Virus record (IMG/VR): IMGVR_UViG_3300042516_002835
Coordinates: 1 to 27,459 of that record
Source: a virus
Reading direction: 5' to 3' (one strand)
DNA: 27,459 nucleotides
Position numbers and translations under genes: made by a program. Shown one piece after another: positions 5,357 to 15,210 of this stretch. How positions within the stretch are numbered: position 1 is the stretch's first letter; each line of letters begins with the position of its first letter. The notes beneath the pieces were generated by a model that saw nothing but the letters and a program-made list of their open reading frames with translations, had not been told where the DNA came from and made no database searches.

Positions 5357-5842
5357 ATGGCTGTATTATCACCAAATGAAATAATGTTCACCGCGTTTGA
5401 ACCTAAAGTTCAGAATCGTTTTATCATGTACATCGATGGTATTCCTGCGTACTTGATTAAATCAGCTGCTGCTCCTGGATTCGAAGCTGGTGAAATTGTT
5501 TTAGATCATATAAACGTTTATCGTAAAGTTAAAGGTAAGGTACGTTGGAGTGACATGACTTTAGGCTTATACGATCCTGTAACACCAAGTGGTGCTCAAG
5601 CTGTAATGGAATGGGCTCGTTTGGCACACGAATCAGTAACTGGCCGTGATGGTTACTCTGATTTTTACAAGAAAGATTTAACTTTAGATATTCTAGGTCC
5701 TGTAGGCGATATCGTAGGTGAGTGGATTATTAAAGGTGCTTATTGCAAAACAGCAACCTTTGGTGAATACGATTGGGCTAACGAAGCTGCAATCAACTTA
5801 TCAGTAACAATCGCTATGGATTACTGCGTATTGAACTTCTAA
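5357..5842 (+). CDS. Tail tube protein (T4 gp19-like)
   Basis: A 161-residue protein, almost the same length as T4 gp19 (163). It shows the tube-fold pattern: FEPKVQNRFIMYIDGIPAYL, SAAAPGFEAGEIVLDHINVY, KVRWSDMTLGLYDPVTPSG, then a C-terminal GEWIIKGAYCKTATFGEYDW and a final strand INLSVTIAMDYCVLNF. Hexameric rings stack to form the inner tube that delivers DNA. It lies directly after the sheath gene and is followed by a strong hairpin terminator, so sheath and tube can be expressed separately from the downstream chaperone and tape-measure genes. Confidence 0.95.
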   Translation: MAVLSPNEIMFTAFEPKVQNRFIMYIDGIPAYLIKSAAAPGFEAGEIVLDHINVYRKVKGKVRWSDMTLGLYDPVTPSGAQAVMEWARLAHESVTGRDGYSDFYKKDLTLDILGPVGDIVGEWIIKGAYCKTATFGEYDWANEAAINLSVTIAMDYCVLNF

Positions 5843-5933: not shown

Positions 5934-6677
5934 ATGGCTGAATTAAAAATTCCAACAGAAATCGTTTCGTTACCTTCAAAAGGTTTATTGTATCCTGAAA
6001 CATCCCCATTATCTAAAGGACAAGTAGAAATGAAGTATATGACAGCTAAGGAAGAAGATATCCTTACTAATACTAACTTCATTCGTCAAGGTACTGTTAT
6101 TGACAAACTATTACAAGCACTAATTGTAACACCAATCGACTACAATGAACTGTTAATTGGTGATAAAAACGCAATATTAGTTGCTGCTCGTGTGTTAGGT
6201 TATGGTAAAGATTATTCTTTTACCTATAATGGTAAAGAAGTATCGGTTGACTTATCAACACTAGAAGATAAAGTAATTGATGAATCACTATACACTCGTG
6301 GCTCAAATGAATTTAACTTTACATTACCACACTCAGGTAATAATATTACATTCAAACTATTAACACATGGTGATGAACAAAAGATTGAAGCTGAAATTAA
6401 AGGTTTACAAAAAGTAAATCCAAACCAATCTACAGATGTTACTACACGTTTAAAACACATGATCACTTCAGTTGAAGGTAAACGTGAAGCTAAAGACGTT
6501 CGTGAGTTTGTTGATAATTACTTAATTGCTAAAGACGCAAGATCATTACGTGAGCATTACAGTAAAATCCAACCTGACATCAATTTAGTTTATAAGCCAG
6601 AAGATGATAGTTATGTAGGGGAGGGCATAGCTATACCGATTTCTCTTAACTTTTTTTGGCCTGACTCCGGACTATAG
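5934..6677 (+). CDS. T4 gp26-like tail assembly chaperone, upstream frame
   Basis: A 247-residue protein whose N-terminal half matches the pattern I associate with the T4 gp26-like baseplate family: EIVSLPSKGLLYPETSPL, then MKYMTAKEEDILTNTNFI, VIDKLLQALIV, and DKNAILVAARVLGYGKDY. It sits between the tube and tape-measure genes, the position of the tail assembly chaperone pair (lambda G/GT) in most long-tailed phages. The chaperone would coat the tape measure during tail assembly. The zero-frame ends shortly after a run of seven T (6651-6657) with a short, unremarkable tail (WPDSGL), while a conserved-looking reading frame without its own usable start continues in another frame. A programmed frameshift is therefore likely (see the next two features). 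An ATATTTAT element precedes the gene. Confidence 0.8.
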   Translation: MAELKIPTEIVSLPSKGLLYPETSPLSKGQVEMKYMTAKEEDILTNTNFIRQGTVIDKLLQALIVTPIDYNELLIGDKNAILVAARVLGYGKDYSFTYNGKEVSVDLSTLEDKVIDESLYTRGSNEFNFTLPHSGNNITFKLLTHGDEQKIEAEIKGLQKVNPNQSTDVTTRLKHMITSVEGKREAKDVREFVDNYLIAKDARSLREHYSKIQPDINLVYKPEDDSYVGEGIAIPISLNFFWPDSGL

Positions 6678-6924
6678 ATTATTACTATTTAACCAAATTC
6701 ATGAAATCGTATTTCACGGAAATGGTGGTTATGATTGGGATACTGTTTATAATATGCCAATATGGTTACGTTTATTTACGTTCAATAAAATGAAAGAACA
6801 TTACGATAAACAAGCCGAAGAGCAAGAAAAAGCCAATAATCTACTTAAAAATAAACAAAACAAGGAAATAGCAAAACCAAACATTGCTCAACCAACATAC
6901 AAAGTAAAGGCGCCTAAAAAATAG
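6631..6924 (+). CDS. Frameshift extension of the tail assembly chaperone (GT/gp51-like), no own start
   Basis: In the frame +1 (equivalently -2) relative to the upstream gene, codons are open from 6631 to TAG 6922-6924. The region reads GLTPDYRLLLFNQIHEIVFH, then NGGYDWDTVYNMPIWLRLFT, a charged helix (NKMKEHYDKQAEEQEKANN) and a Lys/Pro tail. The aromatic-rich NMPIWLR motif looks like real protein and resembles the second chaperone component of myophages. No ATG, GTG or TTG precedes the conserved part; the first ATG (6754) lies inside the motif. The simplest reading is a fusion made by ribosomal frameshifting at 6651-6657, giving about 329-330 residues. The alternative is a homopolymer error in the sequence. 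The stop codon is embedded in a terminator hairpin. Confidence 0.7.
   Translation, partial: LYRFLLTFFGLTPDYRLLLFNQIHEIVFHGNGGYDWDTVYNMPIWLRLFTFNKMKEHYDKQAEEQEKANNLLKNKQNKEIAKPNIAQPTYKVKAPKK
6651..6657 (+). other. Putative slippery site for programmed frameshift
   Basis: Seven T in frame as AAC TTT TTT TGG. Skipping one T (+1), or slipping back two bases with Phe-tRNA re-pairing on TTT (-2), moves ribosomes into the downstream chaperone frame. The only G-rich stretch nearby, GGGGAGGG (6618-6625), lies about 25 bases upstream and is unusual in this SD-poor genome; whether it stimulates slippage is unknown. Confidence 0.6.
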
Positions 6925-6960: not shown

Positions 6961-9168
6961 ATGCCAACACCAGAAGAACAATTAAAAAACGTCGGACAAA
7001 TCCAGCAAGCTTTAGAAGATGGATTTAGAAGCTTAACTCTCAGCATCCAAAACGTTGCTGAAGAGATAGGAGAAGCAACTGATAATCTTGTCACTTTTAA
7101 TACTATAGCAAAAGATATAACAAGAACAGTAAGATCAATAAGTAAGGCGAACGAAGATTTAATTAGTAATCAAGTAAAATTAAATAAAGGTCAATTAGAA
7201 TCGAAAAAAATTCAACAACAAATTGACCAAATAGAAGTTAAAAGGTCAATTTCTCAAAAAAGACTTAATTCTCTTCAAACGGAATTAAATGATGCTTTAG
7301 CATCATCAAGAATAACAACTGCTGAAGTAGCAGAAAAACAAGCAATAATAGCTAATTTAACAGCAGAAATAGCTCGATCTACTCAAGAAGTTACAAATGA
7401 ATATGAAAAACAACTAAAAGAAGCAGAAAAAATAGAAGGAGTAATGGGTAATTTAGGCAGTATTGTAAAAGGCCTAAATAAAATTCCTATACTAGGTAAT
7501 CTTATCAATAGTGAAAAGGTTTTAGAAAAAATGCAGGAAACTGCTGCTAAAACAAAAAATACCTTTGCCGTAATGGCTACTGGTATACTTGAAGTAGGAA
7601 AAAGTATTGCTAAAGGTTTAGTTGATCCTTTAACTGTAGCTACTTTTCTTATAAATAATCTTTTAAAAGCTAATAAACAAAATGTAGAATTAGGTAAAGA
7701 ATTAGGAAAAGATTCTTATGCTTATAGAGAAAATTTAGCAGCAGCTGCTCGATCTAGTAGTAACTTAAATGTTACAACTTCTAATTTAGTAGAAGCTTAT
7801 AGTCAGATATCTCAAACAACTGGATTCGCTTATGAATTTACAGCTGACCAACTTGAAACACAAATTAAATTAACTAAACAAGTTGGACTACAAGCAGAGG
7901 AAGGTGCTCAAATACAACGTCTTGCTGTATTAACCGGAAAAACATCTGAACAAACATATCAATCATTTATTAAAGGATTAGTAGCAACAAGAAATCAACT
8001 TAAAGTTGGTATTAATCTTAAAGCTACATTAGCTGAAGCTACAAAAGTATCAGGTCAGTTAGCTGCTAATTTAGGATATAACCCAGAAAGGATAGCTAAA
8101 GCAGTTGTTGCTACTAAGGCATTTGGTATGACCTTAGATCAAGTAGCTAAATCTGGAGAAGCTTTATTAAATTTTGAATCATCAATTGAAAGTGAATTAA
8201 AAGCTGAATTAATAACAGGTAAACAGATTAATTTAGAAAGAGCAAGAGCAGCAGCTTTAGTAGGAGATCAAGTAGCATTAGCAGAAGAATTAGCAGCAAA
8301 TGTAGGAAACTCAGCTGAATTTGCTGAAATGAATGTTATACAACAGAAATCTTTAGCAGAAGCTGTTGGTATGACAACTGATGAGTTAGCTGAAACTTTA
8401 AGAAAAAGAGAAGAAGCTATAAGACAAGGAAAATCATTAGCTCAAATAACTGAAGAAGAAGCTACAGCAGCCCTTGAAAGACAAACAATACAAGATAAAT
8501 TTAATGCTACTATATTAAAATTACAAGATATAATTGTCAACTTAGCAGCAGGTCCTTTAGGAGATTTAGTTTCAGGTTTTGCAAGTTTATTAGATAATGC
8601 TCTTGTTTTATATCCAATAGTAGGAGCTATAGGAGGAATATTAGTTGGGAAAATGGTAACAGGTATTTTCTCATTTGGAAAAGGATTAATAGCTGCTATC
8701 CCAAAAATGGCATCCTTACTAGGTTTATCTTCAGCTAACGCTGTAGCTAATATAACCGCTGCCGAAGCAGTCTCACTTGGCTTTGCTACTGTAGGTATAA
8801 TAGCAGGAATAGTAGCTGCTGTTTCAGCCATGAATAGTGCTACTAGTGAAGCAGCAGCTAATACTCAACAAGTAAAAGACGGTATAGCACCTTCAAGTAA
8901 AGGTCCATTTACTATTACCGATGCTTTTGGAGCCACAGCAATCACCGCTAATGGTGATAGCTTAGCAGTATCTCCTAATGTTACCAATGGTGGAGATAGT
9001 GGATTAATGACCGCAATCAACGAATTAAGAAACGCAGTAAACGCGTTAGCTACTAAACCTACACCAGCAATGGCAATACAAGTAGGCGCAGAAAAATTAG
9101 GTGAAATCGTTGGAAGACAATCAGAAACTGGTACTAACCAATACAAAAACGCATATAGACTAGCATAA
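6961..9168 (+). CDS. Tail tape measure protein
   Basis: A 735-residue protein between the chaperone and baseplate genes. Residues about 1-160 are long amphipathic helices and coiled coil (for example QLESKKIQQQIDQIEVKR). The middle is Ala/Lys-rich helical. Around residues 540-625 there are hydrophobic helices (LYPIVGAIGGILVG; FATVGIIAGIVAAVSAM) typical of tape-measure segments that enter the host membrane. The C-terminus (KGPFTITDAFGATAITANG, then SLAVSPNVTNGGD) is a pattern I recall from other phage tape measures. By the usual rule of about 0.15 nm per residue the tail would be roughly 110 nm. The leader has a candidate late promoter and a terminator upstream. No lysozyme domain is seen here; that function appears on the hub protein. 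Confidence 0.9.
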   Translation: MPTPEEQLKNVGQIQQALEDGFRSLTLSIQNVAEEIGEATDNLVTFNTIAKDITRTVRSISKANEDLISNQVKLNKGQLESKKIQQQIDQIEVKRSISQKRLNSLQTELNDALASSRITTAEVAEKQAIIANLTAEIARSTQEVTNEYEKQLKEAEKIEGVMGNLGSIVKGLNKIPILGNLINSEKVLEKMQETAAKTKNTFAVMATGILEVGKSIAKGLVDPLTVATFLINNLLKANKQNVELGKELGKDSYAYRENLAAAARSSSNLNVTTSNLVEAYSQISQTTGFAYEFTADQLETQIKLTKQVGLQAEEGAQIQRLAVLTGKTSEQTYQSFIKGLVATRNQLKVGINLKATLAEATKVSGQLAANLGYNPERIAKAVVATKAFGMTLDQVAKSGEALLNFESSIESELKAELITGKQINLERARAAALVGDQVALAEELAANVGNSAEFAEMNVIQQKSLAEAVGMTTDELAETLRKREEAIRQGKSLAQITEEEATAALERQTIQDKFNATILKLQDIIVNLAAGPLGDLVSGFASLLDNALVLYPIVGAIGGILVGKMVTGIFSFGKGLIAAIPKMASLLGLSSANAVANITAAEAVSLGFATVGIIAGIVAAVSAMNSATSEAAANTQQVKDGIAPSSKGPFTITDAFGATAITANGDSLAVSPNVTNGGDSGLMTAINELRNAVNALATKPTPAMAIQVGAEKLGEIVGRQSETGTNQYKNAYRLA

Positions 9169-11847: not shown

Positions 11848-14800
11848 ATGTCAATATTTAGAAATACTTTCCAACAAGATATTAGGGCGCAATTAGAAAA
11901 ACGCCAGGAGGCGATGGTAACACGTACTCCTAAAGTTATTCAATACTTGAATTCTCGTAATTCATGGATTAGATTATCTTCTAGTGTTAATGTTGGTGGT
12001 AGTGCTAATTTAGCCAAAAATAACGTTTTATTAGGTGGTGCTTTAGATTATCAAGTAGTAAACGGAAAAGATGTTTATGCTTTAAGACAAGGTGTTGGCC
12101 AAGGCAATGAAGCTTATTCAAATTTCACTCCATCAGGCCCACCACATAGATTAGGTACTAGACCAATGCCTGGTATTACTAACATGGATATTAAATCTAA
12201 ATCAGCATATGGTTCACTAAGAGAAGCAACAATCAATTTCATTTGTTGGGATATTAGACAATTAGAAGATTTAGAATTATTATATATGCGTCCTGGCTAC
12301 ACAGTACTTGTAGAATGGGGATGGTTACCTTATTTAGATAATAAAAGTAATTTGATAACAACATTACCTAACTTTTATGATATTTTAAATAAAGGGGTAA
12401 CAAATAGAACAACTATATTTAAAGAATTATACGATAAAAGTACTAATTCAGGAGGTAACTACGATGCTATGTTTGGATACGTTAAAAACTACCAATGGTC
12501 AGCTCGTGAAGATGGAGGATACGATTGTCAAACAACAATTATATCAACAGGTGAAATTATTGAATCATTAAAGGTAAATTTTGTATTGCCTGACTTAACT
12601 AGGCTTAATAGTTCTACTCCTAACGGTATTGGATTTCTAGATGCTGAATTTTCAGATCAGGGTAATATTCCTCCAAAGGATTGGAAAAAATATTATGAAA
12701 AAAATACATTAGCTGGAACATGGGCTGAAGCTTATAATAAATTATTAGATACTAAAGTATATAGAACTAACAATGGACCTTCAACACCAGGAACAGTATT
12801 ATCTGCTAATTCAGTCTTTAAAGATAAATATTATATTACTATTTTACCTGGCCTTAAATCAATAAATTCAAATAACCAAGATAGCTTATCAGGAAATAGT
12901 GTTACTCAAGTATACATTACTTTAGAGGCGGCATTTGATGTTATAAACAAATATATTTTACCTAAAGATAGTCAAAAACATCCATTAATGGAACTTTCTT
13001 TAGATACTGAAGGATATTCAACAGGTGTTTCTGAATCATTATTATGTGTAGCACACCCAACCCAAGTATCAGTAGACCCATCAGTATGTTTAATTAAAAG
13101 TCCTTTATGGTATGATAGTGGAGGTATATTATATGCAGTAAGTGGAGCTGCAGCAACAAACCCACAGCTAAAAGCTGATGCTATTAAAAAAGCAGCAGAT
13201 GATTATATATCTTTATATGATGCTACAAAAGTAAGCGCTAACCAAACTAATTATCTTGCATTTGAAGCAGCAATTAAAGCAATAACTAATATTACTGAAT
13301 ATCAACAGATTAATAATGTGTTAGGAGCAAGAAATATTCGTTTTTATCTTTCAAATCTACGCCCTTCGGGAGGGGTATTAGGTTTACAAAATGGTATTTA
13401 TACTGCTACCTTTGATCACTTAGAAAAGGTTATAGGATTACAAATAACAAAAAATGTTACTTTTGGTAGTGGTACATTAGATAAGGCAGATGTTATCGTC
13501 CCTGCAGGTACTCCACCACCACCAAGCCCAACCACATCATTATCTATCTCTTCTATATCAAAAGCAATAACTAACCTAGAATTACTTAAAAATATAACTC
13601 AACCTTATTTCTTAGATAAGGGATATGGATATGATGAATTAGGAGTTATAAAAAATATTTATATTAATTTAGATTTTCTTTATAAACAATCTCTTGATTC
13701 TAACCTTGAATCATCAGATAATAAGGAAAAAAATGAAATTAGCTTATACAAATACTTAAAAAGTATAATGTCTGCTGTACAAACAGCTATAGGTAATGTT
13801 AGCAATTTTGAAATACATGTAGACCCAATAGATAATAAAGCTAGAGTAATAGATGTTAACTATACTGGAGCTAAAAGTGCAGCTAATTTATTTAAACTAC
13901 AAGTACATAACCTAAATTCAGTTGTTAGAAAGTATTCATTACAATCACAAATATTTCCTGAACAGTCAGCTATTATAGCTATTGGTTCACAAGCAAAAGG
14001 TGGTCAATTAGGTATGCAAAACAATACTATGATTGACTTTAATAAAAGTATAACTGATAGAATTATACTGGAAAAAGCATTTCCTGATGGAAAGAACATT
14101 AATGACCCAATTGATGGATTAACCAACATTGCAAGTAATTTAGGAAGTATAATTGATTTATTTGGGAGTTTATCTGTACCCAATGCAAAATCATCTACAT
14201 TATCATCAAAACCAAACCCTCAATCAGTAACTTCTACATCAGGAACTGATTTAAATACATTATTTGCTAGCTCAAAAAATAATTTAAGAGATTTAATAGT
14301 ATATTTCCAATCAATAACTAATTCACCGGGTGCTAATAGAAATATTATTCCTATTAAATTTTCATTTGAAATGGATGGAATTGGTGGTTTAGTAATAGGT
14401 CATTTATTTGAAATAAACGATGATATATTACCTAGTGGGTATAAAGGAATAGGCACTGGTTCTAAATTAGCACAAACAGTAACTGGTATTGGGCATAGTA
14501 TTGGAAGTGGAGATTGGACTACTAAGATAGATGCTCTAAATATTATTCTAGGAAGCAAATCAGGTCCATCTTTTGAATCTTTAAATTTACAAGCATTAGT
14601 AGAGCAATCATTTAGAAGTGCTTTTGATCCTACAACTATAATTTCAGCTCGCCCAACAGTAGCTAGCAAAATAGCATCATTTGGTAGTGTATCTACATTT
14701 GTACCTTTAGGGGCAAGACCATTATTAGATCTTATTGCATACACTGAAGGAACAGCAGGTGTAAGCCAAAATGGATATGACATTATAGTAGGATATAGAA

Positions 14801-15210
14801 AAATAGATGAATGGAATCCAAATTATACAGGCAACCATCCTGACAGATTTATTCCAGGTTTATCTACAGCAGCTGGTAGATATCAGTTTGTAGTGGGTAC
14901 TTGGAATGGATTAGGATTTGGGGCTTTTAATCAAGAAAATCAAGATAGAGGAGGATGGAAATTAATTACAAATACAGGTTTTACTGCTCGAGATGCTACA
15001 GATGTTTTTACTATAGCTAAATCTCAAATACAAAACAACCAAATAAACATCACAGCTAATCCTAAATTTTTAACATTCTTGGATAAAACATATCAAATAT
15101 GGGCTAGTTTACCTAATAGTAAAGGACAATATGTTGATTCTGAGCAAGGAGGAGCTTTTACAAAGGAAGAAGTTTATGGTATATTCATTGAAGCAATAAA
15201 GAAATATTAA
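11848..15210 (+). CDS. Baseplate hub protein with C-terminal GH104-like tail lysin domain
   Basis: A 1120-residue protein. N-terminal segment around residues 110-160 reads KSKSAYGSLREATINFICWD and RPGYTVLVEWGWLPYLDN, typical of large-phage hub proteins. A region near residues 830-890 (KFSFEMDGIGGLVIGHLFEI, then GTGSKLAQTVTGIGHSI) resembles the hub domain preceding the puncturing part. The C-terminal 160 residues match lambda endolysin R (GH104 lytic transglycosylase): LLDLIAYTEGT with catalytic-type Glu967, NGYDIIVG, STAAGRYQFVVGTWN, NQENQDRGGW, then YQIWASLPNSKGQY. This domain would cut peptidoglycan during tail penetration, the role of the GH24 domain in T4 gp5. The start is preceded by GTT. 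No beta-helix repeats are obvious, so the needle may be encoded elsewhere. Confidence 0.85.
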   Translation: MSIFRNTFQQDIRAQLEKRQEAMVTRTPKVIQYLNSRNSWIRLSSSVNVGGSANLAKNNVLLGGALDYQVVNGKDVYALRQGVGQGNEAYSNFTPSGPPHRLGTRPMPGITNMDIKSKSAYGSLREATINFICWDIRQLEDLELLYMRPGYTVLVEWGWLPYLDNKSNLITTLPNFYDILNKGVTNRTTIFKELYDKSTNSGGNYDAMFGYVKNYQWSAREDGGYDCQTTIISTGEIIESLKVNFVLPDLTRLNSSTPNGIGFLDAEFSDQGNIPPKDWKKYYEKNTLAGTWAEAYNKLLDTKVYRTNNGPSTPGTVLSANSVFKDKYYITILPGLKSINSNNQDSLSGNSVTQVYITLEAAFDVINKYILPKDSQKHPLMELSLDTEGYSTGVSESLLCVAHPTQVSVDPSVCLIKSPLWYDSGGILYAVSGAAATNPQLKADAIKKAADDYISLYDATKVSANQTNYLAFEAAIKAITNITEYQQINNVLGARNIRFYLSNLRPSGGVLGLQNGIYTATFDHLEKVIGLQITKNVTFGSGTLDKADVIVPAGTPPPPSPTTSLSISSISKAITNLELLKNITQPYFLDKGYGYDELGVIKNIYINLDFLYKQSLDSNLESSDNKEKNEISLYKYLKSIMSAVQTAIGNVSNFEIHVDPIDNKARVIDVNYTGAKSAANLFKLQVHNLNSVVRKYSLQSQIFPEQSAIIAIGSQAKGGQLGMQNNTMIDFNKSITDRIILEKAFPDGKNINDPIDGLTNIASNLGSIIDLFGSLSVPNAKSSTLSSKPNPQSVTSTSGTDLNTLFASSKNNLRDLIVYFQSITNSPGANRNIIPIKFSFEMDGIGGLVIGHLFEINDDILPSGYKGIGTGSKLAQTVTGIGHSIGSGDWTTKIDALNIILGSKSGPSFESLNLQALVEQSFRSAFDPTTIISARPTVASKIASFGSVSTFVPLGARPLLDLIAYTEGTAGVSQNGYDIIVGYRKIDEWNPNYTGNHPDRFIPGLSTAAGRYQFVVGTWNGLGFGAFNQENQDRGGWKLITNTGFTARDATDVFTIAKSQIQNNQINITANPKFLTFLDKTYQIWASLPNSKGQYVDSEQGGAFTKEEVYGIFIEAIKKY

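Follow-up and report, generated by a model that had tools for sequence, protein, structure and literature searches.

The window, the whole 27,459-base stretch analysed here (positions 1-27,459 of IMG/VR record IMGVR_UViG_3300042516_002835), carries on its + strand a short putative tail assembly chaperone gene of the T4 gp26-like TAC-N type (5934-6677; 247 aa), which matches PHROG 150. Its frame, referred to as frame 0, runs from the ATG at 5934 to a TAG at 6675-6677, and the protein ends in ...ISLNFFWPDSGL* (NFFWPDSGL). The candidate shift site TTT_TTT_T (consensus TTT_YTT_T; 6651-6657, + strand) is split over the frame-0 codons TTT (6651-6653) and TTT (6654-6656) and the T of TGG (6657-6659), with the stop 8 codons past the first slip codon. 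This T7 is the sole run of at least seven T on the + strand of the window. A second frame, in the +1/-2 register, opens at 6631 behind a TAG (6628-6630), encodes YNMPIWLRLFT and closes with a TAG at 6922-6924; its first ATG comes at 6754, already within the conserved domain, with a CTG at 6661 as the one other NTG. The frame-0 reading thus confirms what the sequence-only reading had noticed, a gp26-like gene ending at 6677 just past the T7, and the open frame that it had described, with no ATG, GTG or TTG before YNMPIWLRLFT, is indeed present and its peptide matches relatives in tblastn searches. From GGC (6658-6660) to the TAG at 6922-6924, the +1 frame would supply an 88-aa extension (6658-6924, + strand), which resembles a gp51-like C-terminal domain of a long chaperone (TAC-NC) and has homologues at the equivalent place. 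Translated as one chain, the predicted fused long product (5934-6924, + strand; ...PISLNFFGLTPDYRLLLF...) comprises 329 aa and is collinear with a cyanophage -1 fusion. A conserved Shine-Dalgarno (SD)-like element, GGGGAGGG, is found 25 nt before the first slip codon (6618-6625, + strand).

The locus was expected to lie between the tube and tape measure genes, and it does. The tail tube protein (5357-5842, + strand; PHROG 4542, E 3.7e-19) is 67% identical to the product of the gene at the same place in Flavobacterium phage immuto, and the tape measure protein (6961-9168, + strand) shows 26% identity over ~600 aa (E 5e-37) to an immuto protein annotated as tail tape measure. The sheath and tube genes lie upstream of the chaperone locus and the tape measure gene downstream, an order also seen in immuto. 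Since none of the 28 window genes has a GGAG, GAGG or AGGA motif before its start, the earlier description of the host as SD-poor was correct. Farther along, a 1120-aa protein (11848-15210) has an endolysin-like region near its C-terminus (PHROG 90, E 1.2e-15) and is probably a fusion of baseplate hub and lysozyme.

The short form matches the baseplate hub family PHROG 150 (E 1.9e-8) and is 59% identical to a baseplate hub subunit of immuto. T4 gp26 and gp51, which are paralogues, both match PHROG 150 and PF12322; the window protein itself did not reach PF12322, which its RM378 and SP-15 relatives did. For the short form, AF2 gave a model with pLDDT 90, whose Foldseek matches include predicted baseplate hub and hub-assembly proteins of the T4-like kind, that of SP-15 included; among solved structures, its best match is a weak one to 2ob9, the HK97 tail assembly chaperone (probability 0.51, E 0.88). 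The extension, modelled apart from the short form, is predicted to be helical (AF2, pLDDT 76), and this model gave no useful fold match. At the profile level, the extension aligned with the cyanophage gp51 extension with a probability of 92-95%, compared with 0.2% for a reversed control; directly against T4 gp51 it reached a non-significant 0.2-0.6%, and a combined +1/-1 extension profile reached 89%. The extension of locus L093 matched the baseplate hub assembly catalyst family PHROG 634 with an E of 4.7e-4. In hhalign comparisons the +1 fusion is collinear over its full length with the -1 fusion (97.5-98.4%, E 5e-12 to 6e-15), and the -1 fusion with T4 gp51 (98.3%, E 1.7e-14). The direct comparison of the +1 fusion with T4 gp51 was not significant (0.06-0.2%), so that the link runs through the cyanophages. 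These profiles show the predicted products to be collinear with the gp26/gp51 pair and, by way of cyanophage gp26/gp51 and T4 gp51, identify the two as putative tail assembly chaperones, short and long, of a T4-like phage. The label gp26-like stands and can be specified as short tail assembly chaperone, with the +1 product as the likely counterpart of T4 gp51.

Conservation of the second frame and place of the switch

We compared the locus in two groups of relatives. Loci carrying the short form make up the clade-1 sample, 80 from IMG/VR and 11 from genome contigs, to which the window and three phage records were added; clade 2 is a second, distant clade of 80 IMG/VR loci, one of which is the same contig as L094. 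The non-redundant sets hold 84 loci for clade 1 and 50 for clade 2, and scans with the SP-15 and RL2RES proteins yielded one further locus each. The +1 peptide alone retrieved by tblastn immuto (2e-15), Microcystis phage Mel-JY01 (2e-10) and LR756508 (2e-6), each at the equivalent place and, by its coordinates, in the +1 register. The downstream homologue lies in the +1 register in all 91 clade-1 loci with a detectable extension, the window and the three phage records included, and in 80/80 clade-2 loci. The heptamer is TTTYTTT in 92/92 clade-1 loci and TTTTTTT in 80/80 clade-2 loci, that is, in all 172 loci scored, with the TTTCTTT variant in nine, among them the isolate immuto. Elsewhere in 84 genes of this family, in-frame TTTYTTT occurs only twice. 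The second frame, which overlaps the 3' end of the short gene and has no start of its own, is thus kept among relatives. The complete immuto and Mel-JY01 genomes each have one place for the short form and one for the extension, and therefore no second, in-frame long gene was found in these two genomes. Taken together, these alignments, in which the T-site and both frames persist, show that the two frames form one conserved unit at the level of sequence.

Codon choice marks where the switch occurs. In clade 1, synonymous positions 5' of the heptamer vary freely, and just past it the Pro codon is CCT in 82/84 loci (263/706 gene-wide) and the Asp codon is GAC rather than GAT at 74:1 (314:1188 gene-wide); the corresponding figures in clade 2 are 50/50 for CCT and 47:1 for GAC. 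The +1-frame residues after the site are G at 94%, L at 98% and T at 88%. Because this dual-coding constraint begins at the heptamer and not at the frame-0 stop, which lies 5-9 codons 3' of the site in relatives, the comparison shows that the switch falls within TTTYTTT. On the same grounds, a slip at the frame-0 stop (CTA_TAG) was rejected. A -1 frameshift was discarded as well, its register being wrong.

GenBank records treat the extension differently. ORFs annotated within it begin at an internal or non-canonical start in immuto (L002, 6839-6949) and Mel-JY01 (L003, 6737-6973), and most of the conserved extension domain is missing from the immuto annotation. Annotation in GenBank and metagenomes can thus drop the conserved chaperone extension or start it at the wrong ATG.

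Shift direction, slip codon and rival explanations

We consider it highly probable, from the sequence comparisons, that the locus is one tail assembly chaperone gene from which a programmed +1 ribosomal frameshift gives short and long products. The earlier claim of a frameshift-fused tail chaperone pair is thereby supported. We compared three ribosomal models by hand against the sequences: a +1 slide at the first codon, a +1 slide at the second codon and a -2 shift. All loci scored, down to the distant relatives, have a pyrimidine after TTT, and those distant relatives that lack the exact heptamer keep UUU plus Y (LR756508 TTT_CTA, SP-15 TTT_CAC, GXN1 TTC_TTT_CGT and RM378 TTT_TGG). With a slide from the first UUU to UUY, the sequences of the main clade, clade 2, LR756508, SP-15 and RM378 are all accounted for; for GXN1, an equivalent +1 slide is possible one codon later. 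A second-codon slide (YUU to UUU, prfB type) fits the main clade but not LR756508. In the 84 and 50 non-redundant loci, the first codon of the site is always TTT and never TTC, for which the chance is ~1e-10 and ~1e-9, respectively, given the genes' own codon usage and assuming an independence that the loci do not fully have. A first-codon slide needs UUU, as UUC cannot re-pair, and the second-codon model leaves this absence of TTC unexplained. Re-pairing in the distant relatives and the invariant first codon therefore favour a +1 shift as most likely, with the first UUU as the probable slip codon.

The sequence-only reading had left the direction as +1 or -2. The register holds, and a -2 shift at the same programmed site, in which the P-site tRNA of the second codon would move back two bases and add one residue (LNFFFGLTPD), appears unlikely next to +1. 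A -2 frameshift has been reported for phage Mu. The T7 permits perfect re-pairing, the T always present at the third position of the first codon would be expected with -2 too, and at TTTCTTT the tRNA-Leu could pair with UUC through a G-U pair, so that -2 fits the main clade's own sequences. It is mainly the distant relatives that disfavour it, since GXN1 (TTC TTT CGT) and LR756508 (TTT CTA TTC) would require mismatched re-pairing, whereas both fit +1; in addition, known cases of -2 are far fewer than those of +1 (PMC5009743). For immuto, the predicted junction peptide is ...VSFFGLTPEYR or ...VSFLGLTPEYR under +1 and ...VSFLFGLTPEYR under -2. The corresponding tryptic junction is FFPEDGPDGGVDIPIGVSF-X-GLTPEYR, where X would be F for a first-codon +1 shift, L for a second-codon +1 shift and LF for -2.

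Transcriptional slippage on the T7, which would yield a mixture of mRNAs with altered T counts and a fusion without any ribosomal shift, is suggested by the presence of the only + strand T7 of the window in an A+T-rich phage. However, the nine TTTCTTT relatives, immuto among them, keep the same frame relation with a longest run of three T, which excludes slippage by RNA polymerase and makes this explanation highly improbable. These relatives also bear on the T7 that had been named as the shift site: the heptamer stands, but seven T are unneeded and the signal is TTT_YTT_T.

It is equally improbable that the downstream frame is an ordinary overlapping gene read from its own start, such as CTG 6661 or an internal ATG like that of the immuto annotation, with no fusion. 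The GGAGG-like element upstream, the frequency of CTG as a +1 codon (a consequence of CCTGAC) and the separate ORFs annotated by GenBank in immuto and Mel-JY01 would speak for such a gene. Nevertheless, ATG, GTG and TTG are missing from the open segment in 34/84 clade-1 and 57/80 clade-2 loci, CTG is missing in L003, L034, L035, L093 and L095, the annotated immuto ATG removes most of the conserved domain, and no start codon of the window lies within SD range of the G-rich element. Such a gene would also leave the invariant TTTYTTT of the upstream frame unexplained. Finally, an error of sequencing or assembly in this homopolymer of a metagenome contig, with a real gene that is continuous, can be dismissed almost entirely, since the register is identical in all loci of the two samples (91/91 and 80/80), in sequenced isolates and in TTTCTTT variants without a homopolymer, and six T, or a continuous gene, was seen in no relative examined.

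Whether the A site holds TTT/CTT or the TGG that follows, its codon is a sense codon, and YTT is followed by UGG, UAC or UUC. We found no conserved downstream RNA structure by shuffling (mean z-scores of -0.7 and -1.0 downstream, -0.3 in the control), nor by ungapped RNAalifold. A GGAGG-like sequence, the G-rich element, occurs in 59/84 clade-1 loci compared with 93/3078 control windows (3%), and its distance to the first slip codon there is mostly 23-26 nt. In clade 2, 75/80 loci have it at exactly 23 nt. Glu codons at the element in clade 1 are GAG rather than GAA at 81:17 (235:1303 gene-wide), and GGG is also strongly over-used. This synonymous conservation suggests a role at the RNA level. 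A distance of 23-26 nt is too far for the known prfB-like or dnaX-like roles, and pairing of the element with downstream sequence gave no signal (z -0.28). Synonymous selection on the element (window 6618-6625; equivalents in L009-L097 and L197-L276) is seen even though the phage's own genes lack SD motifs, and a conserved SD-like element in such a lineage is a testable oddity.

In the +1 mechanism that we propose, most ribosomes would pass TTT_TTT_TGG in frame 0 and terminate at 6675-6677, which would yield the short chaperone. In a minority, tRNA-Phe (anticodon GAA) on UUU beside a pyrimidine would slide +1 and re-pair on UUY, and the shifted ribosomes would enter GGC CTG ACT to make the 329-aa long form with its gp51-like C-terminal domain. 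If lambda gpG/gpGT is a guide, the tape measure may be coated by many short and few long copies, which would recruit the tube protein. The +1 direction, UUU as the slip codon, the efficiency of the shift and the chaperone activity are what we infer from these alignments and analogies.

As for the hosts, four genome bins have an above-cut-off prfB match without an in-frame stop, the host assignment of these bins being unsure. In bin G001, the source of phage contig L089, the prfB-family match (L282) contains 8 in-frame TGA codons, which suggests that the host of this bin reads TGA as an amino acid. L089 itself has no sign of TGA reassignment and may be misbinned.

Comparison with known frameshift systems

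The locus resembles the lambda G/GT type of tail chaperone frameshift (Xu, Hendrix and Duda 2004; reviewed in PMC5009743) in that the gene lies between tube and tape measure, the short product ends just past the site, the C-terminal extension is in another frame and the two frames lie as one unit ahead of the tape measure gene. Lambda, however, shifts -1, the usual direction, whereas the register of the window locus demands +1 (or -2). The window proteins are members of the T4 gp26/gp51 family, and no relation to lambda G showed up in the Pfam and PHROG scans. The review PMC5009743 described G-T frameshifting as conserved among long-tailed phages, with T4 as the exception. According to papers that cite it (PMC10885494, PMC12846349), the work of Vladimirov, Gautam and Davidson (Virology 2022) then identified the chaperone genes of T4-like phages and a two-gene mechanism. 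The short form is like gp26 and the long form like gp51, linked by PHROG 150 and by collinearity through the cyanophage profiles; in T4, as these papers relate, the two forms come from two separate genes without a frameshift, whereas the window phage would use one gene and a +1 shift. That gp26/gp51 explains the exception made for T4 has already been published by Vladimirov et al. 2022, as cited there.

A further comparison is with the -1 sister clade, which includes cyanophage S-SSM7, Aeromonas phage phiAS5 and cyanophage-type loci, and in which gp51 follows gp26 in the -1 register. PolyT -1 signals in T4-like TAC-N genes are cited in PMC12846349. The site is NNT_TTT_TTC in 81/81 of these loci, with a GAGG ~11 nt upstream (GAG:GAA 72:8 compared with 550:1323 gene-wide). 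Both clades would shift at homologous Phe-Phe codons near the end of gp26 and share the extension domain. They differ in that the -1 loci have T_TTT_TTC and the GAGG at ~11 nt, whereas the window clade has TTT_YTT_T, a +1 register, GGAGG at 23-25 nt and almost never a preceding T. A T precedes the site in 81/81 loci of the -1 clade but in 2/92 clade-1 and 0/50 non-redundant clade-2 loci, so that the +1 clades appear to avoid making the -1 heptamer T_TTT_TTY. The X_XXY_YYZ pattern, with a -1 register and T_TTT_TTY, does not describe the +1 loci, as the register is +1 in all of them. GenBank annotates gp26 and gp51 as two separate genes in the cyanophage-type loci (L111, L114-L194; e.g. S-SSM7 gp51). 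The two sister clades, which would shift in opposite directions at these two codons and also follow contrary rules for the base in front, constitute a natural experiment on what sets the direction.

The bacterial prfB signal for +1 shifting is YTT_TRA_C with an SD just upstream (PMC3711429). TTT_YTT_TGG_C matches YTT_TNN_C, and a P-site slide from YUU to UUU is possible. The window site differs in having the sense codon UGG instead of a stop, no autoregulation, a much more distant SD-like element and an extra invariant UUU upstream; neither an in-frame A-site stop nor an SD a few nt upstream is found in the window clade. Influenza A PA-X is made by a +1 shift at UCC_UUU_CGU (PMC3498833), likewise with P-site tRNA-Phe on UUU, a pyrimidine next and a sense A-site codon, a likeness most visible in TTC_TTT_CGT of Streptococcus phage GXN1, but on eukaryotic ribosomes and in unrelated proteins. 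Listeria phages PSA, A118 and A500 shift +1 at CCC (PMC5009743). These are also structural or tail genes of phages, but the codon is CCC_UGA and the proteins are others. In the tail genes of the haloarchaeal myovirus HSTV-2, a +1 shift has reportedly been predicted.

No report of the +1 type in the gp26/gp51 family was found in the literature searched, although Vladimirov et al. 2022, known to us through citing papers, could mention one. As far as that literature goes, the +1 sense-codon version conserved in a large clade therefore appears new, while the T4 gene duplication and the -1 type are already published, as the citing papers record. The locus offers a deeply sampled candidate, with well over a hundred relatives, for a +1 programmed frameshift at sense codons of bacterial viruses, a class that according to PRFect (PMC10885494) has no known general motif. 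The earlier expectation of an unusual variant holds against other phages; within its large clade, the arrangement would be standard and not specific to this contig. We tentatively suggest, as a possibility short of an even chance, that making the long chaperone by a +1 shift at the pure sense-codon site UUU_YUU_U, without a stop or downstream structure, is standard in a large clade of phages that are T4-like and infect SD-independent hosts, that GGAGG 23-25 nt behind the slip codon may help as a new kind of element, and that at the Phe-Phe codons shared by the sister clades the direction of shifting has switched, either from -1 to +1 or the other way round.
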